A stretch of DNA of 64,000 nucleotides, taken from assembly GCA_016789105.1 (NCBI GenBank), contig JAEURN010000007.1, positions 1 to 64,000 on the forward strand. The letters are read 5' to 3'. A model generated the notes under the pieces. It made no database searches. It saw nothing but the letters and a program-made list of their open reading frames with translations, and was not told where the DNA came from. The DNA is from Armatimonadota bacterium (GTDB lineage Bacteria > Armatimonadota > Fimbriimonadia > Fimbriimonadales > Fimbriimonadaceae). Positions 20,212 through 50,578 of this stretch are shown piece after piece; within the stretch, counting starts at the first letter, position 1, and every line of letters starts with the position of its first letter. Position numbers and translations under genes: made by a program.

Positions 20212-20278
20212 TTTCTCGGAACCACCGCGAACAATCCAGAATTCAACCCACGTCAAACTAAAGAAACAACGCCCACAG

Positions 20279-21547: not shown

Positions 21548-21554
21548 ATGAACC

Positions 21555-22814: not shown

Positions 22815-22855
22815 GTGGGGGGCGGGCCAGAGCGGCCCGCCCCCCACCTCTTTTT
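22815..22855 (+). terminator. rho-independent terminator after pilC
   Basis: GTGGGGGGCGGGCC (22815-22828) pairs with GGCCCGCCCCCCAC (22834-22847), a 14-bp stem, followed by CTCTTTTTT. Confidence 0.92.
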
Positions 22856-23951: not shown

Positions 23952-24010
23952 AAATGAAAGGGAACAATCGGAAATCGAGGGAAGTCACACAAGACAGACC
24001 GGAGTACGCC

Positions 24011-27067: not shown

Positions 27068-29307
27068 TGGCCCAACGCAAATCCCGAAGCGCATTCACCC
27101 TCATCGAACTCATCACCGTGATGGCGATCACGGCGATCCTCCTCACGATCATCGTCGTGCCGGTGGTCCAAAGCTTCAACCTGACCCGGGCAGCCCAAGG
27201 GTTTGCCGACGCGCAAAACCGAGCCCGCAGCGTGATCTCCCGCATTGAGCGCGAAATCAGCAACAGCGCCGGGGTTCGCGACAACTCCGGCCACAAAGGG
27301 TCGCTCTATATCATGCTCCCCGACAGCGCCGGGGCCCCGACCGCGCTTCTGCTGAGCTACGTCAAGCTGGATGTCCAGGCGCCGGCCCAAGGCGACCCGG
27401 GTTCCCGCGTCGGAACCGCATTCCGTGACCCCGACACGTCAAAGGTCGACCCGACCCTGCAAGCGCCCAAAGGCCAAATGCGGCTCCCCGGCGTGCCCGG
27501 CAACACCATCGTCCGGTACTTCGTGTGCCGGCGTGACCCGTTTGCCGCCTACAACAACCCGTTTGTGCAATACAAGCGACCGGGCGGCGGGAACTGGCTG
27601 GCTGCCGGCGCCGGCAAAGACAACCTCTACGTTTTGATGCGGGCCGAAGTGGAGCCCTACGTTTACCAAACGATTGCCGGGGTTCCCACCCGGGTCGTCA
27701 ATTCGGCCTTCTTCTACGACCTCGACCGAGACGCTGACCCCAACACCCGCGGCCCGCTCTTGGACGATCCGACGTTCATGGATCCCCTGGCTCGCAACGC
27801 GCTCGGCGGGTCTGCCGCGCTCAACTACGCGACGCCCATGGCCTACGACCCGGCTGACCGGGACGCGATGGTTCGCAATTGGCTCAATAAGGCGAGCATC
27901 GTGACCGAGATCAGCCGGTATGACATGATCCAACCGCTGGTTGGCAAGAACAACAACACCGTCGTGTTCGACGGGGTCAAACCGGTCGTGATCCCCCTCG
28001 TCCGGTTCCAGCCGACGCGGATGAACAGCGAAGCGGCAGAAGCCCAACTCGCCGTTCGGCCTAACGAAGAAACTGACAACTCCGAAAAAATTGGCCCCAC
28101 AACCTATGTGACCCAAATGGGCTCTTGGGCCGATGCCTTCTTGCAAGTCTTCCCCAGCGCCTACACGCCGGCAACCGGCCCCGTCGCCAACTCGGCGGGG
28201 GCTGTCCGGCCCGTGTGGCCCGGCGGGGCAACCCTGACGACCATGCCCAACGCCAACGGGGATACCGCGATCTTTGGGCCGGGCGGCGAATATTTCAACA
28301 TTGACCGGTACAAAACCTTGCTCAGTCAAGGGGCGGACTACCCGTTCACGCGGTCGCTCAACCTGGCCCTCCTCGGCGGGTCAGTCCCTGACCGTAACCT
28401 GTTCATTGCCCTCAACCCGGATACGACCCGGGGCGTGGTCGATGCCGGGTTCGACATCCGCCATTACGGCGTTGACACCGGCGTTCCGTTTGCTGGCCGC
28501 GTGCCTTCCAACCAGACGACCGAACCTGGGTTCGACATCGGCCCCACCGTCACGCCAGCAGACCCGGTTTACCAAGCCGGGCCGGCGTGGCACACCTATT
28601 CCGGGGTGAACCAACGGTTCGCCCGCCTGTGGAACCAATGGGATGCCCTTTGGCCCAACCTCGCCGCAGCTCCGGCGCGGGACGACCTCGCCAACGGCTG
28701 CAAGCGGTTCATCGACCTCAGGGTGCTGCCGCAAGCCGGCCCCAGCGCCGAACCGAGCCCGCTCGCCCCAGGGCTGCTGGCCCGGGCCAGCATCGTCCCC
28801 GGAAGTGAAACCATCTACGGGCCCGACCAGAACCCCGGGCCAAATTTTGGCAAAACCGTCCGGTACACGCGCGTTCCCAACATCGATTCGGTGCCCGTCG
28901 GCCCCAACCAATACAAAATCAACTACACCGATCGGAAGGAACCGGACTGGGCCGCCACCTATGGCTTTGCCGCGCCCAACTACGACAAGGCGAGCTACAA
29001 CGCGACCGACTTCCTCTCCTCAGTCCTGCAAGCCCGGTACCGCGCCGGGTACGTAGAACTGAACTCGCGCTACGGCGAGCCGCTCCCTGGCGACGATGTC
29101 ATCGGCGGTACAGGGGCCGAAGGGAACATTTACGCCACCTACCGCTTCCAATTCACAGAGCCGAACGACGTGGTGACGGTGGACTACGGTTCCACTGAAC
29201 TGATGGAAGTCGTGCTGACCATCCGCAACTACCCGCAGACCAACCTCCCCAACCCGCAAATGGTGACGGTGCGAGGCTCTGCGGCAGTGCGAAACAAGCT
29301 GCGGTGA
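27067..29307 (+). CDS. large minor pilin-like protein (PilW/GspJ position)
   Basis: A 746-residue protein whose start KSRSAFTLIELITVMAITAIL is a clean prepilin motif. The early mature region (QGFADAQNRARSVISRIEREI) resembles PilW/GspJ, in which a long N-terminal helix is followed by a beta domain. The remaining roughly 650 residues are far beyond normal PilW length and not recognised. The ATG at 27067 overlaps the preceding stop; a longer upstream frame reads through unrelated codons. Translationally coupled to its neighbour. Confidence 0.8.
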   Translation: MAQRKSRSAFTLIELITVMAITAILLTIIVVPVVQSFNLTRAAQGFADAQNRARSVISRIEREISNSAGVRDNSGHKGSLYIMLPDSAGAPTALLLSYVKLDVQAPAQGDPGSRVGTAFRDPDTSKVDPTLQAPKGQMRLPGVPGNTIVRYFVCRRDPFAAYNNPFVQYKRPGGGNWLAAGAGKDNLYVLMRAEVEPYVYQTIAGVPTRVVNSAFFYDLDRDADPNTRGPLLDDPTFMDPLARNALGGSAALNYATPMAYDPADRDAMVRNWLNKASIVTEISRYDMIQPLVGKNNNTVVFDGVKPVVIPLVRFQPTRMNSEAAEAQLAVRPNEETDNSEKIGPTTYVTQMGSWADAFLQVFPSAYTPATGPVANSAGAVRPVWPGGATLTTMPNANGDTAIFGPGGEYFNIDRYKTLLSQGADYPFTRSLNLALLGGSVPDRNLFIALNPDTTRGVVDAGFDIRHYGVDTGVPFAGRVPSNQTTEPGFDIGPTVTPADPVYQAGPAWHTYSGVNQRFARLWNQWDALWPNLAAAPARDDLANGCKRFIDLRVLPQAGPSAEPSPLAPGLLARASIVPGSETIYGPDQNPGPNFGKTVRYTRVPNIDSVPVGPNQYKINYTDRKEPDWAATYGFAAPNYDKASYNATDFLSSVLQARYRAGYVELNSRYGEPLPGDDVIGGTGAEGNIYATYRFQFTEPNDVVTVDYGSTELMEVVLTIRNYPQTNLPNPQMVTVRGSAAVRNKLR

Positions 29308-29321
29308 GAAGAGACAGGACC

Positions 29322-32300
29322 ATGAAAGCAAGAACCAAAGTGGCCAACCCGACCGGTAAGCGCAAAGCACAGGCGCTGGTCATCGCCATCCTCGTGCTGG
29401 GAGTGCTCCTCATCCTCGGCATCGCCTTCGCCGCGATCGTCAGCCGGAGCATCAACCAAACTGGGGTCTCTGCGCGGCGCACCCTGGCGAGCGACCTCGC
29501 CGGCGCCGGCATCAAATATGCCCATTCCCAGCTGCTGCACTCGGCTTCCGGAGCCGACTGGCGGCCCGAAGCGACCCCGCCCACCGGGATCGCCGGCGGG
29601 CTCACCAAAGACCCCGATGCGCTCTACCTGCGCGAAGGGACCGGCTTCCCGGTCGAGATCGACCCCGTCGGCCGGCCCGGGTTCACCGTTACCGACCTCG
29701 GCGGGCCCGATTACCTGGGTGCTTACAGCCGGATCGGATTCGACAAAGGGCGGGCCTTGGTTCGCGTTCGGTACGCGCCCAATGCGTACGATCAATTTAG
29801 CGCCGCTACCGGCGCCCTCCGCCAAACCGGCAAAGCGCGCGGCTACACGGTGATCGAATCCGTCGGCCGGGCGGGCGCCCTCGATGACCAAGGCCGGGTC
29901 GACCCCAGCCGCTTGCTCGCAACCGCAGTTCAGGTCAGCGGGTTCGCCGATGGCAACGACCTCCGGAATAAATTGGGAGGCATCAAAGCCGCCGATGCCA
30001 ACGTGCCGGACAGCCGGGTCATGATCGGTTTCGCTTCGGTTGGGATGCTCGAAACCCCCGTCTACATCACCGACATCTACAAGACCAACCGCCCGGCCGA
30101 AATCGGCTTCCCGACCGCCGGGGCCGGAGGCCTGTTCACCGACAACACCGGCGTCGGCAACACCTATGAAGGTTTTGAAGTCGCCACCGGGCGCCTTCTC
30201 GGGGCCAACGCCAGCGGTGCGGCCAACATCCCGGTCAGCAACGCGCAGTGGGATCAACTCCCCGGCGCAGGCGGGCTCTATTCCAACACAGCCATCGAAG
30301 TCCATGGCGCGGTGACCGCGTTCGTGAACACCGGGCTCGGCGAATCGTGGATCGTGAACGGTGGCGTCCGGCCGGCCAACTCTTCGTCCTCACTCACCTT
30401 CCAAGCCTTCGACCTGGATGCCAGCACTGCAACGCCCCAGTGGAGGGCTTGGGCGGTGGCCAACGGCAACCCGTTCAACTCGCCGGTTGCCTTTAACGCG
30501 GCGCAACTCAACAGCGACAATCCGCAGTTCAACACCGGCGGCGGGCTCCTGCAGGACGGGCGCAGCGGTGAAGACACCAACGGCTACAACCGCCAAACCA
30601 AACGCAAAGAAGCCCCCAGCATCACCGCCACCGACCCGCAATCCGGGCTCAACCGGTACCTGGAACTCACCCAGCGCACCGGGGTGGCCAACCCCAACGG
30701 CACTTTCAGCGGCGAATTTGGCCACGGCGAAGGCGTCTATGTCGATTCCAACGAGCGGGGCAACCGCCGGGGATCAGACCAGGCGCGCGGGTTCGACCCC
30801 CAAAAGTCGCTTCCCAACGACTGGCTTAACCCGAACAATGCCGCCAGCCAAGGGTGGCAGGGCCCTTACTACATCCCAAACGCACCTCACGTGCGGTTCC
30901 TCCCCGATGGGTTCGAAATCCGCCGGGACACCCGCAGCGCCAGCGCCTTTTGGCAAGATCCCACCGGGGCCTCCACCGGCAACACCTATTGCCGGTTCTG
31001 GGTTCGGCGCGTCGCCGGTGAGAATTACATCGCCGACAGCGTCGCCAACCCAGGGTTCGACCCAACTGTCCCCGCGAACTTCGTCAACCAAGGCCGCATC
31101 TTCAACGGCGTCCTGATGTTCGCCGGCGATGTGCGGGTTCGGGGCGTCATCCCGACCGACCAACAGATCTCCGTGGTCTCGATGGGCACTGTTTATGTCG
31201 AAGGGAGCTTGACTAAAGGCATCGTCGACCCATGGTCGGGAGCCTTGCTCACCCGCCCGAGTGCTTCGGTTATTGCCTTGCTCGCCAAGGACTACGTGAC
31301 GGTGAACACAACGATGTTCTTTGGGCCCAAAGCGGGCGAATCGCCCCGGCCCAAATCCACCAACCCGTTGCCGAACACGCCGAACCCGATCGAGCTTGAC
31401 GCCTCGACCGAGATCACCCTCAATACCGAGTTCTTGCTGAACCCGGTCGGCAACGACCCCTCGGCTTGGGTGCCGTTCGCCTCGGGATATGTCTCGGCAG
31501 ATGGCACGGGGCCGTTGGCCAGCCAGGTCATCCTCGCCGTTTCCGCCGACGACAACGGCCCGTCCTTCCTTGGGATGGATGTCACGGCCAACACCTACAA
31601 CCTGGCTTCGGCGACTGGGGCCTACCTGTGGCAAACCCAGCTCCTCGGGCAAACCGTCAATGGTGCGGCCGCGACTTACCCGCTGCCAACCCCGCTGACG
31701 ATCCCCGAATACGGGCTCACCGACCCCACGGTCAACGCGTATCCCAAGTTCGAAAGCTGGGCCATGCCGGTCTTTGACCCGGCGGCCGGGTGGAACCCCT
31801 ACACCGCGGTCGAACGCCGCCTGCGCGCCGTGCCGCTCAACAGCACGGGGGTTTACGACCTTGCCATGCAAGACACGACCGACTTCCACCTCCGCTTGAA
31901 CCCCATCGGTTCCCAGCCGAGCAAGAACGTCCTGGTCGCCCGCAGCGCCGTCACGCCGGCCGATGTCCGCATCGAAGCGGTCATGTATGCCCAAAACGGC
32001 TCGTTCTTCGTCATTCCCGGCCAATGGTTTAACACCAACCCGGACGACCTGCGCAGCTCGTTCGAACAGAACTACACACCGGGCAACGCGGCCGACGACC
32101 TCAACACCGCCGCCCTGGATTACGGCGGAGGGGCAAACCTCCTGCTGGCCCAGCAGCGCCGGTATGAACGGTTCGGCAATTCGCCCGAAACCCCGTTCTA
32201 TGCCGAGCCCCTGGCTGTCCGAATCACGATCTCCGGCTCCATTGCCGAAAACATGCCCGCCCCCATGAGCATGCAGTCCGAATGGCTGAAGAAATGGGGC

Positions 32301-32567
32301 TGGATGCCGCGCCGGCTTGGGGGGACGGGGCGTGCCCTGCCGGCCCAACACGTGCCGGGAGGGATCCTGGCCGCCGGCCAATTGACGGTGCCCAACCTCA
32401 ACCTTGCCTTTGACCCGGTGCTCACAACTGCGGCCGTCCCGGCCAACTCGACGCCGACCTCGCCGTTGCTTGCGGTTCGGACCACCGCCGATGGGCGGCT
32501 CCTGCCGCCAGCCCCCAGGCTCCCGGTCAGCCCGACCCTCGCCTACTTCGGAGACATCAACCCGTGA
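29322..32567 (+). CDS. giant PilX/GspK-like minor pilin
   Basis: A 1081-residue protein beginning with a basic leader and a hydrophobic helix (KAQALVIAILVLGVLLILGIAFAAIVSRS) like PilX_N/GspK, lacking the canonical FTLIE. The next segment (ASDLAGAGIKYAHSQL) matches the conserved helix of GspK/PilX after the membrane anchor. GspK proteins are about 300 residues; here about 1000 exported residues follow. The ATG at 29322 is preferred over GTG 29304, which overlaps the previous stop. By position it would cap the pilus tip and connect to the secreted proteins encoded next. Confidence 0.75.
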   Translation: MKARTKVANPTGKRKAQALVIAILVLGVLLILGIAFAAIVSRSINQTGVSARRTLASDLAGAGIKYAHSQLLHSASGADWRPEATPPTGIAGGLTKDPDALYLREGTGFPVEIDPVGRPGFTVTDLGGPDYLGAYSRIGFDKGRALVRVRYAPNAYDQFSAATGALRQTGKARGYTVIESVGRAGALDDQGRVDPSRLLATAVQVSGFADGNDLRNKLGGIKAADANVPDSRVMIGFASVGMLETPVYITDIYKTNRPAEIGFPTAGAGGLFTDNTGVGNTYEGFEVATGRLLGANASGAANIPVSNAQWDQLPGAGGLYSNTAIEVHGAVTAFVNTGLGESWIVNGGVRPANSSSSLTFQAFDLDASTATPQWRAWAVANGNPFNSPVAFNAAQLNSDNPQFNTGGGLLQDGRSGEDTNGYNRQTKRKEAPSITATDPQSGLNRYLELTQRTGVANPNGTFSGEFGHGEGVYVDSNERGNRRGSDQARGFDPQKSLPNDWLNPNNAASQGWQGPYYIPNAPHVRFLPDGFEIRRDTRSASAFWQDPTGASTGNTYCRFWVRRVAGENYIADSVANPGFDPTVPANFVNQGRIFNGVLMFAGDVRVRGVIPTDQQISVVSMGTVYVEGSLTKGIVDPWSGALLTRPSASVIALLAKDYVTVNTTMFFGPKAGESPRPKSTNPLPNTPNPIELDASTEITLNTEFLLNPVGNDPSAWVPFASGYVSADGTGPLASQVILAVSADDNGPSFLGMDVTANTYNLASATGAYLWQTQLLGQTVNGAAATYPLPTPLTIPEYGLTDPTVNAYPKFESWAMPVFDPAAGWNPYTAVERRLRAVPLNSTGVYDLAMQDTTDFHLRLNPIGSQPSKNVLVARSAVTPADVRIEAVMYAQNGSFFVIPGQWFNTNPDDLRSSFEQNYTPGNAADDLNTAALDYGGGANLLLAQQRRYERFGNSPETPFYAEPLAVRITISGSIAENMPAPMSMQSEWLKKWGWMPRRLGGTGRALPAQHVPGGILAAGQLTVPNLNLAFDPVLTTAAVPANSTPTSPLLAVRTTADGRLLPPAPRLPVSPTLAYFGDINP

Positions 32568-35500
32568 AAACCTCCCGATCCGCCATCTTGACCGCGATCG
32601 CCGCCTGCGTCGTTGCCACGGCACAGGCACAGCCGGTCGCTTACGCCACGCAAACCACCCCGATCAAAGCCGGGGTCGTGCTCCTGCGTGACCAAGCCGG
32701 ATTCGTGATCCCCAGCTCGGCGCCGCATATCTGGGGCATCCTGGATGGCGACAAAACGGTCAAACCGCCGGAATGGCGGTTCGAATCGGGACTCGGCAAC
32801 GGCGTCCTCACTACTTCGGCGGCGGCCCGTTGGGGCGTCCCTGCAGCAGCCGGAACCCCGATCGACAAAACTTATGCTCCCTATTGGGAGGTAGATCTGC
32901 GCACCGCCAGCAACCAAGACGTCGACAACTTCGACGTGCTCCAAGTCAGTATGCCGGCCGTGGCCCAACTCACTTCCGAAGAGCGGGAGAAACTCCGAGG
33001 ATTCGTCGACAAGGGCGGTCTCCTCTGGATCGACTTCACCGTCAACGGCTCCGGCGTCGACGGCGTCAACAACTTCCCGGCCCCGATCACCACCCGCGTG
33101 GCCCCGGCCGGCCCGGCGGGGCAGATCCAGCTGAACCCGTTCCACCCCTTGGCCATTGGCCCCAACCCGCTTTCTCTCGGCGACATCTATGCCATGAGCG
33201 CCGGGAACCTGCAAGTCGTCCTCGACCCGTTTTCCCTGGGTGCTTCGCCGGTGGCCCAAATCCTCCGGGGCGCGGAACTTGATTCGCTCCGCACCGAAGC
33301 TGTGGCGACTTCCGACAATTCGGCAGTCATCGCCCTCTCGCAGGTTGGCAACGGCTATGTCCTCCTGACTTCAAGAGGGGTCAGCCGTATCATCAACCGC
33401 GATTTCACCGGCGGTTCCAACGCGGCCCTCACCGCCGCGCCTGCCCTCCGCGACGTCTCTTACACGGCGGCGGCCAAGCTCATCATGAACGCCTTGGCCC
33501 TCCGGTCGCGGTTTGCTTCGGCGGCGGCCGGCAGCCGGAATTCGTCCTCCACGGCGGTGACCATCGGCGTCCCCGCCATCAAGTCGTTTGCCGCACCCGC
33601 TTTTGCCGGGCAAAAGGGCACACCTGTCTTGGCCAATGGGCGCCTGATCGTCTCATCGGGCGGGACGCTCTACGTTTACGACGCAGATCCGGCCAGCGAC
33701 CTCGACCGCGACGGCAACCCCGATGACGGGCTGGCCGATCCCGTTGGATCCTCTTATGACCGCGTGTGGTCGAGTGCCAACTTCGGGGCAATTTCCGAAC
33801 CGACCTACGTCGAAATCCCCGGTGCCGCCATCGCCGAACAGATCTGGGTTCAGTCCACCGACGGACGGCTCCTCGGATTCAACCTTAACCAGACGACTTT
33901 CACCGGGGTCACCCCATTTGCCGCAATTGACCCGCCAACAACCGGGCCGTCGCCCCAGCCGGAAGTGTTCGCCCCGACGTTCCACGAAGGGATCCTTTAC
34001 GTTGCGGATGCCGGTGCCGGTGCCACCCCCCAAGGGCGGCTCTGGATGGTCAACCCGCGCATGGCCGCCGACATCGCCATGGGCGGCGGCAATGTCAACG
34101 AAGCGCGGAACGTCGACGATGACGGCAACGTTTTGGGTAACTACGCCTGGGGCGGGGATTCCAGCCCCAATTACCACGTGCCCGGGGCCAGCCCCTCCAT
34201 CGCCTATATCCCGATCGAAGATGGTTCCGGCGGGCTCGACCTCGTTGCCTACATCGGTTGCAAGCGGACGACCGGCGCGTTCACCTCGCCCGTCCAGTTG
34301 ACAAGCTTATTCCTGGGGGCACGCGGGGAAGTCCCGCGCGATGTCAGCCGGGCGGCAACCGCCTTGAACCTCCAAACCCGCGTGGCCCAACAAGGCGTCC
34401 GGGTCTCGGTGGTCACCGGCGCCCGCTCGCCCAAAGGCTTGACGGTGCGCGCCTATGTGAACGGCCAACCGTTCACCGCCGCCCAAATGGCCACGTACTT
34501 CACCGGCGTCGTGCTGCAGCCCAGCAACGGTACCATCCAGCTCCAAATCCAACCCGCCCAAGTCGGCGCTTTCGACTGGGATGGCAAAGACACCCCCGGC
34601 AACCCCAACGACGACGTGAGCTACCGGGTTGATTACATGTGCGACTGGACCACAACCGGTGCGCCGATCAACCAAATGGTGCGGGGCAACATCTTGGTGA
34701 TGGATCAAAACATCCCTCAGCTGGATCTGATGGCCCCTCCGGCCGTCTCGGCGAGCGGGAACGTCGGCCTCATCGTGGCCAGCCCGGACGGGGGGAGCTA
34801 CTACAACATCGAAGAAAGCGGCATCGGCACCATGTGGGTGCGCAGCCGGTTCGAATTCCATGGGGCGATCACTAACCTCGGGGCACTCGGTTCTTCAGTC
34901 GGCTACCCGCCCAGTCTGGTGGATGAAGACGACCTGGTGCGCCTCGTCCCGCCCCTCAATCAAGCCATGTCGAAAATCCGGCCCGTCGGGATCGCGGCCG
35001 CCGGAGATTCGTTCTATGTGCAAGTGGCGGCGACCAAATCCCTCGGCGGATTCGGAATCCCTACCGGGGCCATCCTCAGCTTCAAAGCAAGCCCGCCAGA
35101 CCCTGAATTCACGGTCAATTTGGGCAGCGGTCAAAACAACACCGGGCTTTTGTTGAAGCAACCGGATATGGCCCGGAGCGGCTATGCGGCATTGCCGGGG
35201 CTGTTCAGCAGCATCCCGAGCAATGTGTTCAGCATTGAACCGATCGCCAACAGCACGCGGGCCAAAATCCGCATGAGCTCGCTGGCTTCGGGGACCCGGG
35301 GGTCGATGAACTCCTGCCTCGCCAGCAACCTGCCGGTCATCGTCAACCGCAGCGGCACCACCGACACAATCTATGAGCCCGAGGCACCCGCGGACAACGG
35401 AGCCTTTTTCAAAGGTTTCGCTTCTGGCCGTTGGAGCCCCCTCAACTGGTACACCGTCATGAACGGCTATGTCGGGCAAGTCGGCCCGGTCGTGGCGGGC

Positions 35501-37327
35501 GAGCGCGTCATCGTCGGTGGGGCGAGCTTCCTGCCTGGCCTCGTTGTTAATGGCTTCACCGGCATCCCGACCGGGATCGACGGGCTGTTGTTCGGGATGG
35601 ATGCGCGCATCAGTCCGGATGATCCGAACTTGATCTCCACTGCCGCCCGTCCTTGGGTGAGCCAGCTCTATATGCTCAAGTCCCCGGCCCCCGCCCCGTT
35701 CAACTTTACGGGTGTCGTCCCGGCCAAGGCGATCCGGTGGCCGCAGGCCCGCGGGATCACCGACCTCGACGACTTCCGCGTCCGCATCTTGCAAGCCTCG
35801 CTCCTGGGCGAAACCCAGCTCTATGGGCTCGCGGCGGGCGAAGGCGGCATCGCAGTCACCACCGATGCCAACACGACCCTGTTCCGCCGGAGCGACTTCC
35901 TGATCGCCGACAACGGGCGCATCAGCCGGTTCGACCCGAGCGGCAACCCGCTGTTCTCGCTGGAAGGCACTTCGTACGGCGGAACCAACCAACCGGGGGT
36001 TGCCGAACGCACCCGCCGGATGTCGTCGCCCAACCGCGTCTATGCCGACGGGCAAAACGGGTATGTGTTTACCGACCCCGGCAATAACCTGGTGGCCCGA
36101 GTCGATTCCTCCGGGCGCGAGATCCGCAGCATCACGGGGATCAAATTCCACCAAGACGTGTTTGCTACCACGGATCCGGCCCACCCCGAGCTGAGCCCCC
36201 GCGGCCAGACCCAAAACGAGCCGAAGCTCCTGCGCAACCCGCAAGACGTCGCGTTTTGGACAAGCTATGTCACGGCTGCCGACGTGCAGCGCCTGTTCCC
36301 CAGTGAAGGCGCCTACCGGACCTACACCAACGAACGGTGGGACAACTGGCTGATTGCCGACGCTGGCAACAACCGCGTTATCCAACTGATCGACCGATAC
36401 ACGCTGGATTCTGCCGGCCGGGTGGCGGGCGTGGTTCGCTATCGTGACGTCAGCGACAACGAAGACGCCAACAACCTCACGCCGGCCCTCGGGATCCTCT
36501 GGTGGCATTCGCCCGAAGAGTTCTCGGGCAAACGGTACGCCTACAATTCGATCAGCCGGGCCACGGTGGACGTGGGCGGTTCCATCCGCACCGCGTATGC
36601 CATGGGATTCAACAACGTTCAGCCCAGCTTGCGCACGTTCGGGCTTGACACGAACCCGTCGGCCCGGGGCGACAACCCCACCGGCTATGGCGGGGCGGTC
36701 ATCTACGACGGTCCGAGCACCAAAGTCATTAACGAGATCGTTCTGCCGGCAACCCCGGCCAATGTCCTAATGGGCACAGCGGGGGCGAATTTTGCGTTCA
36801 ACCTCCCCGCCCGGGCCGCCCAGACGATCGCAGTAAGCGGGCTCACCTCGGTCACGGTCAAATACCGCGACTTCGGTTCAGGCCCCGTCCTCACCGCCAT
36901 GCTCTCCACCGACCGGGGTGTGTTCGAAGTCGTCGAAACAAGCCCCAACGTCTGGAGTGTCATCTGGCAGCTTCCCGTCGAGGTGTATGAGTTCATGCGC
37001 CGGCCGGTCGGGAATCCGCCCACCTACACGCCGGGCCAACTGGCCAGCAACCCCGAAGGGTTCCGGGCCATGCACGCCAAACGGCTCGATTCTGGAGATG
37101 TGCTGGTCGTCAACGGCTACAAAGGCACCTACAAAGGCGGCAGCTCCTTCGATGGCGAAGTCCTCGTCATCGATGGTTCCACCGGATTTACTGCCGACCC
37201 CCGAATCCCCAGCTACGACGTGAACCGGCAAAACCTCGGATTCAACGCCCTCAGCATCCTTTATGAGCTGCCGCCGGTACAAGGCATCCGCGGCCTCGCC
37301 CACCCTGTGTTCGCAGAACGACAATAA
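32564..37327 (+). CDS. giant secreted protein 1, NHL/propeller-like repeats
   Basis: A 1587-residue exported protein with a signal peptide cut after AQA (residue about 23). A flavodoxin-like or DUF4159-like segment (LRGFVDKGGLLWIDF, about 145-160) is near the N-terminus. DADPASDLDRDGNPDDGLAD (about 370-390) looks like a calcium-binding loop. Around residues 1200-1290 there is an NHL-type repeat (NPQDVAF ... LIADAGNNRVIQLID), and other blade-like units (GRISRFDPSGNP) precede it. The GTG start overlaps the stop of the PilX-like gene (GTGA). In canonical pilus operons this place is held by pilY1, whose C-terminal part is a calcium-dependent beta-propeller. Homology to PilY1 is not evident; function is inferred only. 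Confidence 0.72.
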   Translation: MKTSRSAILTAIAACVVATAQAQPVAYATQTTPIKAGVVLLRDQAGFVIPSSAPHIWGILDGDKTVKPPEWRFESGLGNGVLTTSAAARWGVPAAAGTPIDKTYAPYWEVDLRTASNQDVDNFDVLQVSMPAVAQLTSEEREKLRGFVDKGGLLWIDFTVNGSGVDGVNNFPAPITTRVAPAGPAGQIQLNPFHPLAIGPNPLSLGDIYAMSAGNLQVVLDPFSLGASPVAQILRGAELDSLRTEAVATSDNSAVIALSQVGNGYVLLTSRGVSRIINRDFTGGSNAALTAAPALRDVSYTAAAKLIMNALALRSRFASAAAGSRNSSSTAVTIGVPAIKSFAAPAFAGQKGTPVLANGRLIVSSGGTLYVYDADPASDLDRDGNPDDGLADPVGSSYDRVWSSANFGAISEPTYVEIPGAAIAEQIWVQSTDGRLLGFNLNQTTFTGVTPFAAIDPPTTGPSPQPEVFAPTFHEGILYVADAGAGATPQGRLWMVNPRMAADIAMGGGNVNEARNVDDDGNVLGNYAWGGDSSPNYHVPGASPSIAYIPIEDGSGGLDLVAYIGCKRTTGAFTSPVQLTSLFLGARGEVPRDVSRAATALNLQTRVAQQGVRVSVVTGARSPKGLTVRAYVNGQPFTAAQMATYFTGVVLQPSNGTIQLQIQPAQVGAFDWDGKDTPGNPNDDVSYRVDYMCDWTTTGAPINQMVRGNILVMDQNIPQLDLMAPPAVSASGNVGLIVASPDGGSYYNIEESGIGTMWVRSRFEFHGAITNLGALGSSVGYPPSLVDEDDLVRLVPPLNQAMSKIRPVGIAAAGDSFYVQVAATKSLGGFGIPTGAILSFKASPPDPEFTVNLGSGQNNTGLLLKQPDMARSGYAALPGLFSSIPSNVFSIEPIANSTRAKIRMSSLASGTRGSMNSCLASNLPVIVNRSGTTDTIYEPEAPADNGAFFKGFASGRWSPLNWYTVMNGYVGQVGPVVAGERVIVGGASFLPGLVVNGFTGIPTGIDGLLFGMDARISPDDPNLISTAARPWVSQLYMLKSPAPAPFNFTGVVPAKAIRWPQARGITDLDDFRVRILQASLLGETQLYGLAAGEGGIAVTTDANTTLFRRSDFLIADNGRISRFDPSGNPLFSLEGTSYGGTNQPGVAERTRRMSSPNRVYADGQNGYVFTDPGNNLVARVDSSGREIRSITGIKFHQDVFATTDPAHPELSPRGQTQNEPKLLRNPQDVAFWTSYVTAADVQRLFPSEGAYRTYTNERWDNWLIADAGNNRVIQLIDRYTLDSAGRVAGVVRYRDVSDNEDANNLTPALGILWWHSPEEFSGKRYAYNSISRATVDVGGSIRTAYAMGFNNVQPSLRTFGLDTNPSARGDNPTGYGGAVIYDGPSTKVINEIVLPATPANVLMGTAGANFAFNLPARAAQTIAVSGLTSVTVKYRDFGSGPVLTAMLSTDRGVFEVVETSPNVWSVIWQLPVEVYEFMRRPVGNPPTYTPGQLASNPEGFRAMHAKRLDSGDVLVVNGYKGTYKGGSSFDGEVLVIDGSTGFTADPRIPSYDVNRQNLGFNALSILYELPPVQGIRGLAHPVFAERQ

Positions 37328-37333
37328 CCCCCG

Positions 37334-40300
37334 ATGAAGGCCAACCCCATGCAAACCAACCGCAACAAAAACAAAGGCTGGCAAGCGATTGCGCTTGCCG
37401 CCCTCTTCGCGGTGACCGCCGCCACCGCATACGCCCAGGATTTCCGGACGTTTGGCGGCAGCAACGAGCGCGCAGGGAGGAGTACGCTCCAGGCAAGCAC
37501 CGCCGTACCCGAAACGACTTGGGGCAACGGTGGCCGAGGGTTCTTGCGGTGGTGGGATCCCATCTTCCAAGACGGCGCGCAGATCGACAACCCCGATCCA
37601 GCGGCCGGTGCCACCCTCGGGGCCTGGCTCGACCCGGCAACCGCTGGGGGCAACCTCATCTTGGCCGGCGCGTTTATCCAAAACGCCGCCGGAGCTACAC
37701 CCTATGTCTATTCCGTCACCTCGGCAACTGGCGGCAACGACGGCCCGAACCCGAGCATCGGCGCAACCGCGGCGTTCACTTGGAACTTCACGCTCACCCC
37801 AGGGAACGAGTACACGGTCGATGTCAACCTGCCCATCGGCCCGACGAACATCAACCCGCTCGGCGCACCAGATCTGCGGTTCACCCCGCACTACCAACTC
37901 TATTCCGTCACGGATGCCACCGGTACAAACTACTACTGGGCCGATATGCGCATCGATGCCGGCGGGTTTGCCAACCTTGGCAACAACCGGCACTTTATCG
38001 CCGATGCCGGCGGGGCCATCACCGTCACCGTTTACAACGTTTGCCGCCGGAACGATTTCGGCACGCTCGTTGATGGAACCGACCAGCCCGGCTTCGACAT
38101 CGTTTATGCCGATGCCGCCCAAGCGACCAACCAATCCCCCCAAGGCGTGGGATCCTACACCGCATCGCCGGTCGTGGGGCAATTGCTCCAGCCGCGGATT
38201 GATGCGCAGCCGACCGTTTTTGACCAACGGGTCGTGACGGCCCGCAACGAAGAGGTCTTCGTCGGCTCGCTCAACAAACAAACCCGGTTCGGGGTTATCA
38301 CCTCTTTCACCCACAACGGCGCAGTCGTCAATGTCGCCCAACCCCTGCGCCGGAACATGGTCTGGAGCTGGCCGGCCGTGCGGCCGTTTGACCTTGGCCA
38401 AGCGGAATCCGACCGCTATGCCGTGGAGCGCCAGAACTGGATCACCGGCGGCCCCAACGCCGCCTATCCGCGGAACCTCGTCTTCAGACAGGCCGACAAC
38501 TACAGCAGCGGCACGGTTGTGGGCGGGCTGTTCCTGCCTTCCAATGCGTTCAATTCCATCGGGCCTGACCACCTCCTGACCCCGGTCATTTCAACTGCGG
38601 CCACCTCATGGGTCGATTGGACGCCGGCGGCCAAACCAGGGAAGTACTTCGTCGAAGTCTTCCTCCCGAACAACGACACGCCCGGCGACCTTGGCACGCA
38701 AGTCACCTACCAAATCCGCCAGGGCCTCACCGTCCTGCAAACCATTGCGATTGACCAATCCGCCCAAAGCAACTGGGTGCGGTTGCCCAACCAACCCGCC
38801 GATGGGTACGACTCGACCGCTGGGCCGCTCACCATTCGCGTGCTGAACACCGGGACGGCGCAAGATGTGCTCGATGGCCGCCAGGTTTATGCCGATGCCG
38901 TCCGTTTGGTCGGGGACGCCGACCTGGGCATCACCGCAACCCCCGTGCAAACCGTCGGGACGGTCAACGCCCCCGGGCCGGTTGGGGCTGACGTCATCGT
39001 GGCCACTCGGGAAAACGGGACGGTCACGGCCATGGAAGCCCACGGCGACGAAGTCACCGGCACTCAGAACAACGTCCTTTGGACATGGCCGAGCGAAGAC
39101 CCGGCCACCGACCCCAACAACGCCAACACCGAGGATTACGGCATCGCCGAAACCCCCACCGGTTTCGGCATGAGTTCGCCGCTCGTCGCCAACATCGGCG
39201 GGACGGATCTGGTGTTCACCGGCTCCCAAAACGGCCGCGTCTATGCGCTCGAACTCGCCGGCCGGGGCGACGGGACGACCCGCCGCCGCTGGACATGGCC
39301 CGACGACTTTGACACCACCGCACCGACGACGCCGATGGGCACCACTAGCGTCGGAGCTATCAACGGTTCGGTCGCCCTGGCCAACGTGGGCGGCACTCCC
39401 GCCATCATCGTCCCCGGCTCTAATGGGCAAATCTATGCCCTAGATGCCGCCGGAAACGGAGGAACGCGCAAAACGACCGTCCTTTGGCAATTCGCCACAA
39501 CCGGTCTCACACCCATCAGCATGACCCCGGTCGTGGCCTTTGGCCGCGTGACCTTTGCCGCAGGCAACACGGTTTATTGCCTTGACGAAGCGACCGGTGC
39601 CCTGGTGTGGCAACGCAACGTCCGGCAAGACGGGATCACGCCTTTCGGCAACTTTGGCACGGCTTCCCCCGTCGCCGTGGAAGCGCCGATCGTGGCCGCC
39701 GACTCGCTCTACTTCGTGGACGATGGCGGGTACATCACCAGCCTCGACGCAGCAACCGGCACCGTGAACTGGCAAGAAGCATCCGTGGCCAGCGGTTCCA
39801 CCGCCAGCCTGCGGTTCGCCTACATGCGCACCTATGACCCGACAGGCTCGTTCATCCAAAACGCGGTTCCGACCGTCTTGGTGGCCAGCAACCAGGGCAC
39901 CTTGCTCGGCTTCTATGCCGACGGCTCGGTGAACATCAACGGCAACCGGGTCAACTGGGGCTACTTCGTGCAGAGCGAAGGCACCCAGAGCGCCAGCTTC
40001 GCCGTCGGCGGCTGGCCCAACGCGGCCGGGCTCCTGGCCAACCGGTGCCACCTGTACATCGGCGACGCCGACGGGATCCTCTATGCGTTTTCCAGCGAAG
40101 ACGACATCAACGGGGTCGGTCCCATCACTCCGGGCGTCCCGCCGGGCAGTCAATCGGCCAATCCGAACGACCCGAACCAGGCCGCCCTCAACGACCTGAT
40201 CGACCAGCCCAACGTCATCCTGCTTTCGCCCAACGACTACAACGACCTGGATAGCAAAGCCGTCGCCGGGACGTTGTCCGCGGCGGACATCGCCAACTAC

Positions 40301-43300
40301 AAAGCCAACGCCATCCAGCGCCGGTCATTTGAATTCGGCGAGACCCTGTACGTGATGATTGCGGACATCAATGCCACGACCGTCCCCGAAACCTCGGGTT
40401 ATGTCGTGCAGTACGACGTCACCGTCGGATCCAGCCGGACCGGTTCCCAAATTGCGCAAGTCCGCGATGTTGCGGGGGCGGCAACGCCACAAGATGGCGG
40501 CGTGGCCTACTTCCGGTACGTTGTTTTGCCGACCGGCACGCGCGGCGTCGCCCCTGGCACCGCCCAACTGGAAGTCTCGGCTCGGATCAACCGGGGCGGC
40601 GGGGCTGTCCGCGGCACCCCGGTCGACCTCTCGACCTCAGTCAACACACCAACTGGCGGGGACTTTGAACTCCCCAACCCGCTCGGGATCGATCTGGTCA
40701 ACCAAGGCGGCACGTTCAACCAAGCCGGGGTGACCACGAACCCCGCCGACGTGCTCGTCAAAGGGAACCTCCCCGCGGGCTATACCGGGGCGGCGGCCAC
40801 GCCGTTCAACAAGTGGACCAACGGCTTTGTTAACCCCGGGCCGGCCGCCGGAACTCCGGGCACTTGGTTCAGCACCGCCGTCGGCGGGACTGACCCGGTC
40901 GCGCATAACTCCAGCGGGCTTTCGCTCATGCGAGTCTACGACCGCACTATCCTCCAACTGGTCAACGGTCACTCGCAAGGCCTGACCAACGTGAGAGTGC
41001 AAGCCAACGACCTAGCCTGGCAACCGGCCAGCGTGGGAGTGCCCGTGACCGCCGCCGATGCGGGGATCTACAATCCGATCGCCTACGCCGGGTTCGAAGA
41101 CCTCCCCAACTCCTATCCCAACGTCAGCCTTGACTACCCGGATATGCGGCGCAGTTCGCTCGCCATCACCAAGTCGGCTGGAGGCAACACCGAAAACCCG
41201 CTCTTCGGCGGCGTCTCGCTCAACGCCTCGCTCATTACCCCCGCTGACCTGACGACCTATGCCACCGTTGCCGGCTACGAAGCTGGGCTCGTGACAAGGA
41301 CTTTGCAGCCGACCGTGTTCTCCATGCGGCTCAATGTCCCGCAATACCAGCCCGCGACGCCGAACAGCCCAACAAGGCCGAGTGGCTACGTGGCCGAAAA
41401 CGTCATCTATGTCGATAAAGGCCAGGCCGGATTCGACACCGAAGACGCGGCCCGGCGGTTCACGCTCGGTGCCAACATCTCGGTGGATGAGCACGTGACA
41501 TCCGACACCAAAACGGTGGATCTCGGATCAATCCCGGCGGGCGGCGGGCACTATAACCTGGCCGGAAACGCGGATCAGCCGATCAACGGCGCGTTCGCCC
41601 CGTTCAACGCCATCTTCAACTCGGGCCAAAACCCGCAGTTCCAACAAGTCACCGCCTTCAACGAAGGCAACGTCAACCTCCTCAATGTCCGGGTTTCCAA
41701 ACGGCTCGAAGTGCTCAACGGAATCATCCCGACAGAGCGGCCGTTGGAACTCTATGCCAGCGGAGAACATGAGCTCGGATGGCTCGATGCCACGATGGGC
41801 CTGTTCAGCGATCTCGACCCGCTGCTCAGCCCGACCTTCCGCACTGGGCTTGACCCCAATGGGAATGTGTTCCTGCAAAAACCGCGGCCTGGCGATCCCG
41901 CCCCGTCACGGCTCAGCACGAACCCGCGCCGGAGGCAGAACAGTAACCTGCTTGTGAACTCGGGCACGTTGATCGCCAATCAGGCGGCATTCCCGCCGGG
42001 CGACCCGTATGTCGGTGTCGCCGCCCCGATCGGCACTCCGGTCGGCACCTATGTCCGCGACATCTTCGTCTTCGAAGATTCGGTGCCCGGATCCGTCTTG
42101 GGTGCCCGGTTCCCATCCTTGGGCTATGTGCCGGTTGGCGGACAATTCGTGCCGGAGGCTTACACCAACCCGGGCATCACGCTCAAGTTCAACATCCGCG
42201 AAACACGCCTGACAACCCGGCCAACGGCGAAAACATCCGGCGTTTTTGACAACGTCGGGGTCGGCGATGCCGGGTTTGAATGGTCCAGCCGCCAGCCGAC
42301 CGTTTCGCGCGGTGCCGACGGCCAACTGTACTTCGCCTTCAGCTCGAACCGCGAAGACGTGGCCGGGGCTGCCCCCAGTCCCAGGCCGAGGTTGAGCACC
42401 GATGGGCGGCTTCAGCCGATTTGGCGGATCTACTTCGGCAGCATGGCCAACCAAGCGGGCATCACCGCCAACACGTCGTTCAGCCCCATCGGCGATTTGC
42501 ACGACAACCAGCCAACTGCCAACAAGTGGATGGACTACCAAGGCATGCTCCCGAATGGCATCGAGTGGAACAACTGGTTTGCCCTTGGTGCCGGTGAAAG
42601 CCTCTTGGCGCCCGGGACACCATCCTCGGCTTCGTTCAGCTATCCCACCTTCCCGACCGCCGGATTCGTCGACCCGCTCGACACTCCAACTGCCGGGATC
42701 GGACGGGTGCACCGGCCCAACCGGTACATGGCCTTTGTTGGTGAAACAACAAAGGTCGACCGGACGGGAACCCGTGTGCCGTTGAGCCAAGTCATGGTCG
42801 CGGATCTGCAATTCCAAGCTGCTGGTGTCACCCGCAACGGGTCGGGCGCGCTCAACGGGATCTTCCCGATTGCGCAAGACCCCACCTCCAAAAAAGGCAA
42901 GCCGAGCATCGTCCAACAAGGGGCGAATGCGGCAGTGTTCTATCCGGCGCAAAGCTCCGGCCGCAGCGAACTCTACACGGCGACCTTTGATGGTGCGGCG
43001 TGGGGGAATGTGCGTGCGCTCGGGCTCGGTGCCGTGTTCGAAGACCTTTCCGGAGTCTCTGCCAACCTCAGGCTGATCAACTCGGGCGTCTTTGCGGGAA
43101 TTGGGTTCATCGACACCTTTTTCACCGGGCATGTCCGCGGACGCCAGAATTCCGAGGCCTTCTACGGCAAACTCGAAACGGACGACAACGGTATGCCGCT
43201 TGCCGATCCGCGTTGGATCACCTTCCAAAACCGGCTCGACCGGCTGGACTACGACCCGGCTACCGGCGTCTTCTGGACCCCGGGTGTGCACTTCGACATG

Positions 43301-44308
43301 AGCCCTGCGAACGTCGATGCCTTCCAACTCCTGATCCTCAACCCGGTCACAGGCCTGCTGGAACCCCTCATCAACAACAACCCGCTCGTTCCGGCCGATA
43401 TGCGCTCCCGCTTGATCGACCGGGAAGCCCGGGAGATGGTGTTCGAATCGCCTCGCGGCGGCAAGGTCTATGTGGATGCCCTTCGAGGTTCGATCCGGCT
43501 GAGCGGGGTGGCGACGAGCCGCAACACGCAGATCTTCGCCCGGTATTCGCCGAAGTTTGTGCGAGTCAGCGGGGCATCGACCGCCTTCCGCATCGGAACC
43601 GGCGAGATCGCCCAGGCCAACGTGAGCTCGGGTATGAACTACCGGGGCGTGTCCTCCGCGCTGGATGACCGGTACCTCGGGGTGTTCATCGACGCCACCC
43701 AACCGTGGCGGAACCTGACCGAAGACCTCAACTTCTGGTACACGGCGATCGGCGCGCCCATCGGCACAACTGCCGTCCAGCAAGACCGGTACTTCCTGGC
43801 CTTCAACCGGACCTCCAACGATGGGGCGACGGCGGCGCGGCCGGCGATGAGCACCCTGCGGTTCGGGCTTTACCTCCCGACCCCAGTGGCGATCAACCCG
43901 AATACGCTTCAGCCCTATGCCCTCAACGTCACGGGGCTCGCGACAAACCGGATCCAGGTGGATCCGACTAGCGGGAAGGTGTTCCTCGGCATGGCAGAAG
44001 AAGGTCGGACGATCCGGATCCGGTACACCGGAATCGACATCAACGGCAACCTGCTCCCCAATATCCAGGTAGAGGGCACCGTCGGACTCATCGTCGAAGA
44101 AGGCGAGTCGCTCGTCCCGATCGAACAGGTCGGCCAAGAAGGGGACTTCACCTTTGGGCTCGACCGGCTGGCCCCGAACAATTCGGACAACCGGTTGCGA
44201 CGGCCGCCGTTGCTCTGGATGGTCTGGAGCAGTACGCGGACTGGAGCCCAAGACGTCTATATGCAGACGCTCGCGCCCAAAACCGCTCCCCGGCTCCGGC
44301 GCCCCTAA
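37334..44308 (+). CDS. giant secreted protein 2, golvesin-like and PQQ-propeller domains
   Basis: A 2324-residue exported protein, the largest in the window, with a signal peptide ending AYA-Q (about residue 35). Two regions (about 80-260 and 430-530, the second with PGKYFVEVFLPN ... VYADAVRL) look like golvesin C-terminal-type beta-sandwich domains. Between about 550 and 930 there are PQQ-like propeller blades (GQIYALDAAGNG, VYCLDEATGALVW, YITSLDAATGTVNW, ILYAFSSED). The last 1300 residues are beta-rich and unrecognised. It follows giant protein 1 by 6 nt and precedes a strong terminator. ATG 37349 is an alternative start. Likely outside the cell or attached to the pilus tip. Confidence 0.72.
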   Translation: MKANPMQTNRNKNKGWQAIALAALFAVTAATAYAQDFRTFGGSNERAGRSTLQASTAVPETTWGNGGRGFLRWWDPIFQDGAQIDNPDPAAGATLGAWLDPATAGGNLILAGAFIQNAAGATPYVYSVTSATGGNDGPNPSIGATAAFTWNFTLTPGNEYTVDVNLPIGPTNINPLGAPDLRFTPHYQLYSVTDATGTNYYWADMRIDAGGFANLGNNRHFIADAGGAITVTVYNVCRRNDFGTLVDGTDQPGFDIVYADAAQATNQSPQGVGSYTASPVVGQLLQPRIDAQPTVFDQRVVTARNEEVFVGSLNKQTRFGVITSFTHNGAVVNVAQPLRRNMVWSWPAVRPFDLGQAESDRYAVERQNWITGGPNAAYPRNLVFRQADNYSSGTVVGGLFLPSNAFNSIGPDHLLTPVISTAATSWVDWTPAAKPGKYFVEVFLPNNDTPGDLGTQVTYQIRQGLTVLQTIAIDQSAQSNWVRLPNQPADGYDSTAGPLTIRVLNTGTAQDVLDGRQVYADAVRLVGDADLGITATPVQTVGTVNAPGPVGADVIVATRENGTVTAMEAHGDEVTGTQNNVLWTWPSEDPATDPNNANTEDYGIAETPTGFGMSSPLVANIGGTDLVFTGSQNGRVYALELAGRGDGTTRRRWTWPDDFDTTAPTTPMGTTSVGAINGSVALANVGGTPAIIVPGSNGQIYALDAAGNGGTRKTTVLWQFATTGLTPISMTPVVAFGRVTFAAGNTVYCLDEATGALVWQRNVRQDGITPFGNFGTASPVAVEAPIVAADSLYFVDDGGYITSLDAATGTVNWQEASVASGSTASLRFAYMRTYDPTGSFIQNAVPTVLVASNQGTLLGFYADGSVNINGNRVNWGYFVQSEGTQSASFAVGGWPNAAGLLANRCHLYIGDADGILYAFSSEDDINGVGPITPGVPPGSQSANPNDPNQAALNDLIDQPNVILLSPNDYNDLDSKAVAGTLSAADIANYKANAIQRRSFEFGETLYVMIADINATTVPETSGYVVQYDVTVGSSRTGSQIAQVRDVAGAATPQDGGVAYFRYVVLPTGTRGVAPGTAQLEVSARINRGGGAVRGTPVDLSTSVNTPTGGDFELPNPLGIDLVNQGGTFNQAGVTTNPADVLVKGNLPAGYTGAAATPFNKWTNGFVNPGPAAGTPGTWFSTAVGGTDPVAHNSSGLSLMRVYDRTILQLVNGHSQGLTNVRVQANDLAWQPASVGVPVTAADAGIYNPIAYAGFEDLPNSYPNVSLDYPDMRRSSLAITKSAGGNTENPLFGGVSLNASLITPADLTTYATVAGYEAGLVTRTLQPTVFSMRLNVPQYQPATPNSPTRPSGYVAENVIYVDKGQAGFDTEDAARRFTLGANISVDEHVTSDTKTVDLGSIPAGGGHYNLAGNADQPINGAFAPFNAIFNSGQNPQFQQVTAFNEGNVNLLNVRVSKRLEVLNGIIPTERPLELYASGEHELGWLDATMGLFSDLDPLLSPTFRTGLDPNGNVFLQKPRPGDPAPSRLSTNPRRRQNSNLLVNSGTLIANQAAFPPGDPYVGVAAPIGTPVGTYVRDIFVFEDSVPGSVLGARFPSLGYVPVGGQFVPEAYTNPGITLKFNIRETRLTTRPTAKTSGVFDNVGVGDAGFEWSSRQPTVSRGADGQLYFAFSSNREDVAGAAPSPRPRLSTDGRLQPIWRIYFGSMANQAGITANTSFSPIGDLHDNQPTANKWMDYQGMLPNGIEWNNWFALGAGESLLAPGTPSSASFSYPTFPTAGFVDPLDTPTAGIGRVHRPNRYMAFVGETTKVDRTGTRVPLSQVMVADLQFQAAGVTRNGSGALNGIFPIAQDPTSKKGKPSIVQQGANAAVFYPAQSSGRSELYTATFDGAAWGNVRALGLGAVFEDLSGVSANLRLINSGVFAGIGFIDTFFTGHVRGRQNSEAFYGKLETDDNGMPLADPRWITFQNRLDRLDYDPATGVFWTPGVHFDMSPANVDAFQLLILNPVTGLLEPLINNNPLVPADMRSRLIDREAREMVFESPRGGKVYVDALRGSIRLSGVATSRNTQIFARYSPKFVRVSGASTAFRIGTGEIAQANVSSGMNYRGVSSALDDRYLGVFIDATQPWRNLTEDLNFWYTAIGAPIGTTAVQQDRYFLAFNRTSNDGATAARPAMSTLRFGLYLPTPVAINPNTLQPYALNVTGLATNRIQVDPTSGKVFLGMAEEGRTIRIRYTGIDINGNLLPNIQVEGTVGLIVEEGESLVPIEQVGQEGDFTFGLDRLAPNNSDNRLRRPPLLWMVWSSTRTGAQDVYMQTLAPKTAPRLRRP

Positions 44309-44332: not shown

Positions 44333-44370
44333 CGGCCCCCCGGTTCCAAACCGGGGGGCCGGGTTTTTTC
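44333..44370 (+). terminator. rho-independent terminator after giant protein 2
   Basis: CGGCCCCCCGGTT (44333-44345) pairs perfectly with AACCGGGGGGCCG (44349-44361) and is followed by GGTTTTTTC. Confidence 0.93.
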
Positions 44371-44504: not shown

Positions 44505-45689
44505 ATGGCGAAGAGATTGAACAGCGTTTTGGGGATCGACATCGGAAGCCAGTCGGTCAAAGTGGCGGAGATCCGGATGCAGGGTGGGCAACCCACCATC
44601 ACGGCCCTCGGCATGGCCCCCACGCCCGAAGGGGCCATCGACCACATCGGCATCAACGACCCCGAACAGATCTCCGTGGCCATCAAGCAGGCGATCATGG
44701 AAGCTGGGGCATCCGTCCCTGATGCCGTCAGTTCGCTTTCGGGACAAGGGACGGTTCTCGTCCGACCGCTCGAAGTGCCGAACATGAGCGAATCGGAACT
44801 CAAGGATCACATGCAGTGGGAGTTCACTCGCAACATCCCATTTGCGGAAAGCACCGTCGAAACCGACTTCAAGGCCTACCCGCTCGCCGACCCCGCCGCC
44901 CAAAACCTCGATGTGGACATGGCCATTGCCACCCATTCCGGGGTGACAATGCAGTCGGACATCCTCAAAAAAGCCGGGCGCAAAGCCTTTGCCCTTGATG
45001 TCGAACCCCTTAGCGTCTTGCGTTCCCTTTCCGTTAGCTACGGTTCGGAAGCCGGGAACAAAACAGTCTGCGTTGCGGAGATTGGCCACAAGACCACAGC
45101 GATCAACATCTACAAGAACGAACGGCTGATCTTCTCGCGCACCGTCCCCGTCGGGGGCGAAATGTTCACCCGGGCCATCGCCGACAGCAAGGGCGTCTCG
45201 TTCCAAGATGCGGAGCGGATGAAGCACGAGCAACTCGTGCTCCCTGAAGATGCGGCCCCGGCCCAGACCTTTAACCCGTTCGCCGGGTCGGCCACCGTGC
45301 AGAGCTACAACCCGTTCGCCGATGCTCCCGAGCCGGGGGCCCAAGCCGATGCGCCGGCGGAACCAGCCGCGCCGGTACCCGTGGAAACCAACCCGGTCTA
45401 CCCGGCGGTCTCCAACGCACTGGACGAATTGGTGGCGGAGATCCGTCGCTCGATCGACTACTACAAAACCAAGGGTGGGGATGTCGACATGATGCTCGTC
45501 ACCGGCGGCTCGGCGGGGATCAAAAACCTCGACAAATTCTTGGCCTCGGCAACGGGACTCAAGGTTGAACTGATGGATCCCTACCGAAATGTCTCGATGA
45601 GCCTCAAGAAAGGCGACCCGGGCACCTACGAACAATTGAAGCACGCATTTTCGGTTGCGATCGGGAACGGCATGCACATCTGCTTTTGA
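44505..45689 (+). CDS. pilM: type IV pilus assembly protein PilM
   Basis: A 394-residue actin-fold protein on the cytoplasmic side of the alignment complex. The N-terminal phosphate-1 motif LGIDIGSQSVK (about 9-19), AEIGHKTTAINIY and the C-terminal LVTGGSAGIKNLDKFL are typical of PilM, which binds ATP and the PilN N-terminus. An insert of about 60 residues (250-310) is rich in A, P and E and holds two similar NPFA motifs (TFNPFAGSA, SYNPFADAP). First gene of the pilM-pilQ operon. Confidence 0.93.
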   Translation: MAKRLNSVLGIDIGSQSVKVAEIRMQGGQPTITALGMAPTPEGAIDHIGINDPEQISVAIKQAIMEAGASVPDAVSSLSGQGTVLVRPLEVPNMSESELKDHMQWEFTRNIPFAESTVETDFKAYPLADPAAQNLDVDMAIATHSGVTMQSDILKKAGRKAFALDVEPLSVLRSLSVSYGSEAGNKTVCVAEIGHKTTAINIYKNERLIFSRTVPVGGEMFTRAIADSKGVSFQDAERMKHEQLVLPEDAAPAQTFNPFAGSATVQSYNPFADAPEPGAQADAPAEPAAPVPVETNPVYPAVSNALDELVAEIRRSIDYYKTKGGDVDMMLVTGGSAGIKNLDKFLASATGLKVELMDPYRNVSMSLKKGDPGTYEQLKHAFSVAIGNGMHICF

Positions 45690-45705
45690 ACGGACAGGCG
45701 ACTGA

Positions 45706-46554: not shown

Positions 46555-46567
46555 AGGAATCGACACC

Positions 46568-48105: not shown

Positions 48106-48193
48106 AGCGCGGTTGGTGCCGACAATTCAGATTTAGATCACAAACGAGACAAACAGAAGCAAAGAAAGGTATCTTCGAGGAACCAAAAGGACA

Positions 48194-48847: not shown

Positions 48848-48876
48848 CCAATCGGGGTAAATTGAGGAGGAACGAT

Positions 48877-50505: not shown

Positions 50506-50530
50506 GCGCGGCAGAGAATCCACGCCAGGC

Positions 50531-50570
50531 GGCAGCGGTGGCCAAAGCGGTCGCCGCTGCCTTTTTCTTT
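50531..50570 (+). terminator. rho-independent terminator after pilQ
   Basis: GGCAGCGGTGGCC (50531-50543) pairs with GGTCGCCGCTGCC (50549-50561), 13 bp with two G-U pairs, then TTTTTCTTT. It ends only 9 nt before aroK. Confidence 0.85.
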
Positions 50571-50578
50571 CTAACGCC

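Follow-up and report, generated by a model that had tools for sequence, protein, structure and literature searches.

PilY1 is part of the priming and tip complex of the pilus and contacts PilX by beta-strand complementation. Its gene lies in cassettes of the type FimU-PilV-PilW-PilX-PilY1(-PilE), as in Pseudomonas and Myxococcus. The role of PilY1 has been described for Myxococcus (PMC7541494); this work, together with a report in which calcium motif 1 of PilY1 is given as Dx(D/N)xDGxxD (PMC13190605), provides the precedent for a propeller protein with a tip function. Two other systems offer points of comparison: the PilA1-3/ComZ tip complex of Thermus, in which a GspK/PilX-type pilin is enlarged by an inserted domain and has been argued to sit at the tip (PMC6561018), and the Verru_Chthon pseudopilin cassettes (TIGR02596-TIGR02600), which encode oversized pilin-like proteins.

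The window analyzed here—a stretch of 64,000 nucleotides from a 2.75-Mb Armatimonadota genome—contains a pilus locus with the following features, all on the forward (+) strand:

18418..22796, +: upstream type IVa pilus motor genes pilB (start at 18418), pilT (20279) and pilC (21555)
22815..22847, +: terminator-like hairpin between pilC and pilD, with a 14-bp stem, 13 GC pairs and a T-rich tail
22914..23951, +: pilD, prepilin peptidase, assigned from its ORF, sequence and position
23948..24928, +: GspG-like pilin of 326 aa with a class III leader (PF07963 at 4e-5, over the cut-off; TIGR01710 at 2e-11)
24992..27067, +: PilV-like minor pilin (V) of 691 aa (weak TIGR02523 match, E = 0.007; class III leader in relatives)
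27067..29307, +: PilW/GspJ-like minor pilin (W) of 746 aa (PF07963 at 1e-5, over the cut-off)
29322..32567, +: PilX/GspK-like tip pilin (X) of 1081 aa (N terminus RRxGQTLVIA...; weak PilX_N, GspK and DUF7305 matches in relatives)
32502..32564, +: C-terminal tail of PilX, LPPAPRLPVSPTLAYFGDINP, conserved across the phylum
32564..37327, +: G1, secreted giant 1, of 1587 aa (ORF, Sec signal peptide, homologues)
37334..44308, +: G2, secreted giant 2, of 2324 aa (ORF, Sec-secreted, homologues)
44334..44369, +: terminator-like, GC-rich 12-bp hairpin with a T-tract just 3' of G2, the end of the unit
44505..50505, +: pilM (TIGR01175, over the cut-off), two genes in the pilN/pilO position, a pilP-like gene, an STN protein and the secretin (Secretin at 8e-37)

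The coupled chain from pilD through the pilin, V, W and X to G1 and G2 was recovered with the ORFs, lengths and coordinates of the original prediction, which had also placed the whole chain before one terminator, here a strong hairpin. Overlaps amount to 4 nt between pilD and the pilin gene, 1 nt between V and W, and 4 nt (GTGA) between X and G1, while G1 and G2 are separated by 6 nt; an alternative GTG start at 29304 would lengthen the pilX product to 1087 aa. In relatives, G1 is likewise coupled to pilX through GTGA or ATGA, and its product again has a signal peptide. The hairpin between pilC and pilD is the predicted start boundary of the pilD-to-G2 transcription unit. The pilD ORF matched no NCBIfam model; a pilD gene is kept upstream of the minor pilin cassette in relatives. 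The class III leaders of the pilin and of W exceed the PF07963 cut-off, whereas those of V and X are weak by the model and visible in the sequence and in relatives. The pilin beside pilD (23948-24928) has a calcium-type loop of its own, DLNGDGSID at aa 158-166, and the exact motif recurs in 9 of 71 relatives.

How does this locus compare with the described systems? It shares with the FimU-to-PilY1 cassettes their translational coupling and a run of minor pilins that leads directly into a beta-propeller protein, secreted by Sec and equipped with a calcium loop. It differs from them in the size of its minor pilins (691-1081 aa), in having two giants rather than one, in the DUF4159-like N terminus of G1 where PilY1 systems have vWA or DUF4114, in the glycan-type domains of the second giant, and in giving no match to PF05567, the PilY1 family. 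The enlarged GspK/PilX-type pilin is common to this locus and Thermus, but Thermus has no secreted propeller pair. The likeness to the Verru_Chthon cassettes lies in the oversized pilin-like proteins and weak N-terminal matches, which are below cut-off and mainly in the leader region.

The arrangement is widely conserved. G1 is present in 60 of 61 close relatives of the window genome, and a G1 profile matched 236 of 291 Armatimonadota genomes from dozens of families. The 55 genomes that gave no match served as a contrast set, of which at least one (G253, locus L160) does carry G1; calls of G1 absence are therefore not absolute. As far as the contigs reach, the order pilin-V-W-X-G1-G2-pilM on one strand was found at all 86 loci where the end of G1 is complete, and equally at all 16 loci chosen from distant families. 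A PilX gene lies directly upstream of G1 on the same strand at 82 of 88 loci by script, and at the other six by their printed coordinates. G2 follows G1 in 84 of the 85 loci with room for it (81 by profile, two as long frames, and L148 as a downstream frame of 2190 codons); the distant G1 of L133 is the only clear solo case among them. The expectation that the pair would follow PilX-like genes in related genomes is thus upheld for G1 at every locus with room, and the contrary outcome, homologues that mostly occur without pilus genes, did not materialize. Outside Armatimonadota, the search consisted of one pattern-based scan, in which conserved peptide patterns were sought in 84,980 species genomes; it returned 78 loci and, bar one record, no sign of another phylum. 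Leaving aside records whose names are generic or plainly mistaken, all named relatives are members of Fimbriimonadia or of other Armatimonadota groups. That record, titled Methanoregulaceae archaeon (L086, JADZEW010000021), is the same contig as one in a Fimbriimonadaceae genome (G018), and its title looks wrong. In the open-access literature searched, we found no paper that describes this cassette or links Armatimonadota with it.

What kind of protein is G1? An AlphaFold2 (AF2) model of aa 24-1085 (pLDDT 87, pTM 0.89), fold comparisons and homologue alignments divide it as follows:

32633..33508, +: DUF4159-like / glutamine-amidotransferase-like Rossmann domain, about aa 24-315 (PF13709, AF2, Foldseek)
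33566..35818, +: propeller A, about aa 335-1085, of PQQ/BamB type with inserts (AF2 model, VIA fold comparison)
33698..33724, +: calcium-loop motif DLDRDGNPD, aa 379-387, with the pattern of PilY1 motif 1
35819..37324, +: C-terminal NHL-type region, ending in the conserved tail PVFAERQ (NHL in homologues; alignment)

The N-terminal domain, which is absent from the original prediction, was matched by PF13709 (DUF4159) in each of the 21 homologues that were aligned (best 4e-6), and Foldseek matched its modeled structure to 2gk3, 4i66 and a GH42 domain. Propeller A resembles PQQ/BamB-like propellers over about 300 residues, with VIA Z scores of up to 20.6. Toward the C terminus, NHL repeats were detected within the last ~500 residues in 13 of 36 homologues, so that the NHL blades of the original prediction are borne out for G1 in that minority, while the PQQ blades proposed alongside them are clear in G2 (see below). 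G1 carries a predicted PilY1-type calcium loop inside its modeled beta-propeller, as had been suspected: the motif 1 pattern occurs in 68 of 86 G1 homologues, against 0.25 expected from shuffled sequences, and the exact motif is missing from the other 18. EF-hand-like loops are common in proteins; judging from the motif, the loop in G1 may bind calcium.

Is G1, then, a PilY1? PF05567 had no match at E ≤ 1 in G1 or G2 and none in 21 G1 homologues, and it matched in 0 of 291 Armatimonadota genomes in a search that was run without a positive control. A G1 profile compared with all PDB sequences, the PilY1 structure 3HX6 included, found no match. The fold search with G1 matched PQQ-class propellers; 3HX6 was not among the matches listed, which excludes nothing. 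By sequence, G1 and G2 would not be counted as members of the PilY1 family, in keeping with the original view that they have no clear sequence relation to it. G1 could still be a true PilY1 homologue that has diverged in the extreme, given that it occupies the same genomic place and combines a PQQ-class propeller with the calcium motif 1 pattern, but the silence of both profile searches speaks against such descent, as does a different domain order, in which the Rossmann domain is followed by propeller A, which holds the loop, and by a second region of NHL type. The loop, unlike that of PilY1, is also not in the last propeller. We consider this descent very improbable. The functional likeness is another matter: G1 is encoded immediately 3' of pilX within an operon of minor pilins, has a signal peptide and contains calcium motif 1, and its position, secretion, propeller and calcium-type loop agree with the role described for PilY1 in Myxococcus (PMC7541494). 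The proposal that G1 and G2 are functional analogues of PilY1 has accordingly gained strong circumstantial support, from PilX upstream, from the calcium loop in a propeller and from the failure to detect PilY1 itself.

The second giant contains two recognizable propellers:

39359..40102, +: PQQ propeller, aa 676-923 (PF13360 at 2e-12)
42026..44293, +: C-terminal propeller of sialidase/lectin/TolB type, about aa 1565-2320 (AF2 pLDDT 87; VIA)

The PQQ propeller was found in 34 of 35 G2 homologues. As for the golvesin-like segments of the original prediction, Golvesin_C matched 24 of 35 homologues (best 1e-36), N-terminal to the PQQ propeller, and did not match the window's own G2. The nearest folds to the C-terminal propeller are sialidases, arabinanases, a fucose lectin and TolB (VIA Z 16-18), so that structure prediction, proposed at the outset as a check on both giants, places propellers in each. 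A motif search found no Asp-boxes in G2, which sets it apart from GH33-type bacterial sialidases despite the similar fold; a binding role is therefore more likely than catalysis for the C-terminal propeller. Golvesin and lectin/sialidase-like domains would suit adhesion. A G2 profile found no match among all PDB sequences.

The PilX-type protein upstream has a striking C-terminal tail. It keeps the pattern LPPxPRLPVSPxLxYFGE throughout the phylum, in contrast to the remainder of PilX, which diverges. A PilX profile found no match among all PDB sequences. We considered the tail as a docking site for G1 and do not claim it as such: a weaker, degenerate form is retained in several PilX proteins without G1, so the presence of the tail does not prove docking.

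To what kind of machine does the cassette belong? Type II secretion systems have no PilT or PilM. In the window both are adjacent to the cassette and over their cut-offs (PilT, TIGR01420, 484 bits against 319; PilM, TIGR01175, 186 against 133), where a type II system would lack them and have a platform of the GspL/GspM type. The best model for PilB was TIGR02538, at a score under its equivalog cut-off, and PilC models matched pilC. By these profile matches, PilT and PilM together speak for a type IVa pilus and against type II secretion. The alternative first raised with the prediction, that G1 and G2 are cargo of a pilus-like secretion system, is not supported, given the retraction ATPase and PilM. 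A pseudopilus that expels the giants as soluble substrates, in a type II-like manner, would account for the GspK/GspJ/GspG-like character of the minor pilins, for the missing surface anchor on G1 and G2, and for GspD being the best model of the window secretin, and a survey has assigned type II secretion to Armatimonadetes (PMC6668835). Yet PilT and PilM flank the cassette, cargo would rarely show so strict a one-to-one order with PilX, and the genome has two further secretin loci that could serve secretion; one of these, on contig 6, is separated by about 7 kb from a pilin-like gene cluster. We regard export as cargo as unlikely. Across the whole genome, at least 56 proteins with PF07963 pilin leaders lie scattered, far beyond the need of one pilus, and one group of pilin-like genes is at 294-296 kb of contig 6, near the second secretin locus.

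The giants might instead be periplasmic or outer-membrane accessories, for example associated with the secretin or part of a cell-surface coat, that are co-expressed with the pilus and not carried on it. Their genes have the minor pilins on one side and pilM on the other, and the BamB-like propeller fold is known from periplasmic assembly factors. The golvesin and lectin/sialidase-like domains, however, are typical of extracellular proteins, the genes occupy the position of the pilY1 adhesin, and neither the size nor the domain mix resembles known secretin partners. An envelope role of this kind seems to us quite unlikely.

We favor, with somewhat better than even confidence, a reading in which G1 and G2 form a non-pilin tip module of the Armatimonadota type IVa pilus, an oversized and non-homologous counterpart of PilY1 that is probably adhesive. 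Minor pilins V, W and X, whose globular domains are very large, would assemble first in the periplasm and prime the pilus; G1, exported by Sec, would bind the PilX-type protein in the way that PilY1 does in other bacteria, and G2 would attach to G1. Carried at the pilus end, the complex would then exit via the PilQ secretin and mediate calcium-dependent adhesion to surfaces, glycans or matrix, with PilT retraction transmitting force. What has been observed is the arrangement of the genes, their co-inheritance, the signal peptides, the predicted folds, the calcium-type loop and the lack of recognizable PilY1 sequence; the tip complex, its order of assembly and its adhesive and calcium-binding roles are inferred from these. 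Fimbriimonas ginsengisoli is fimbriated and non-motile, and its pili were judged to serve attachment (PMC4072686), which agrees with an adhesive tip. Armatimonadota may thus have built their own, much larger pilus tip. Whether the phylum as a whole uses a non-homologous G1+G2 tip of about 400 kDa, mounted on oversized minor pilins, in place of PilY1 is a broader claim, to which we give slightly less than even weight. If it holds, the job of PilY1—a propeller with a calcium switch, encoded after PilX—arose more than once, and the type IVa pilus tip has a second, independent solution, whose supporting minor pilins are several times the usual size. The pair also offers a handle for annotating otherwise anonymous giant genes in most Armatimonadota genomes.

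Several lineages have the minor pilin cassette without G1 and G2, which indicates that some pili of this kind do without the pair. At L159, L163 and L166, pilX is followed directly by the pilM-to-pilQ genes, and the PilX tree shows at least three changes between presence and absence of G1. Even within the window's own family, two genomes of 1.5 Mb (G036 and G164; loci L155 and L156) have kept PilT and a short, fast-evolving PilX and have no G1. Overall, the pair appears to be an accessory part of the tip, one that lineages can lose, and not an obligatory part; its natural absences make it possible to ask which PilY1 features (propeller, calcium loop, PilX contact, distal ligand domain) are required. 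In G036, which is 97% complete, no secretin match was found. We considered whether G1 strictly requires the secretin and set the idea aside, as this genome is without both and yet retains PilX and PilT; its pilus was possibly altered, or its outer membrane remodeled, after genome reduction. In the window, the secretin gene is closely followed by aroB (48862-52122), as it is in the distant Armatimonadota loci L159 and L163, an arrangement reminiscent of the pilQ-aroK-aroB linkage in Pseudomonas.
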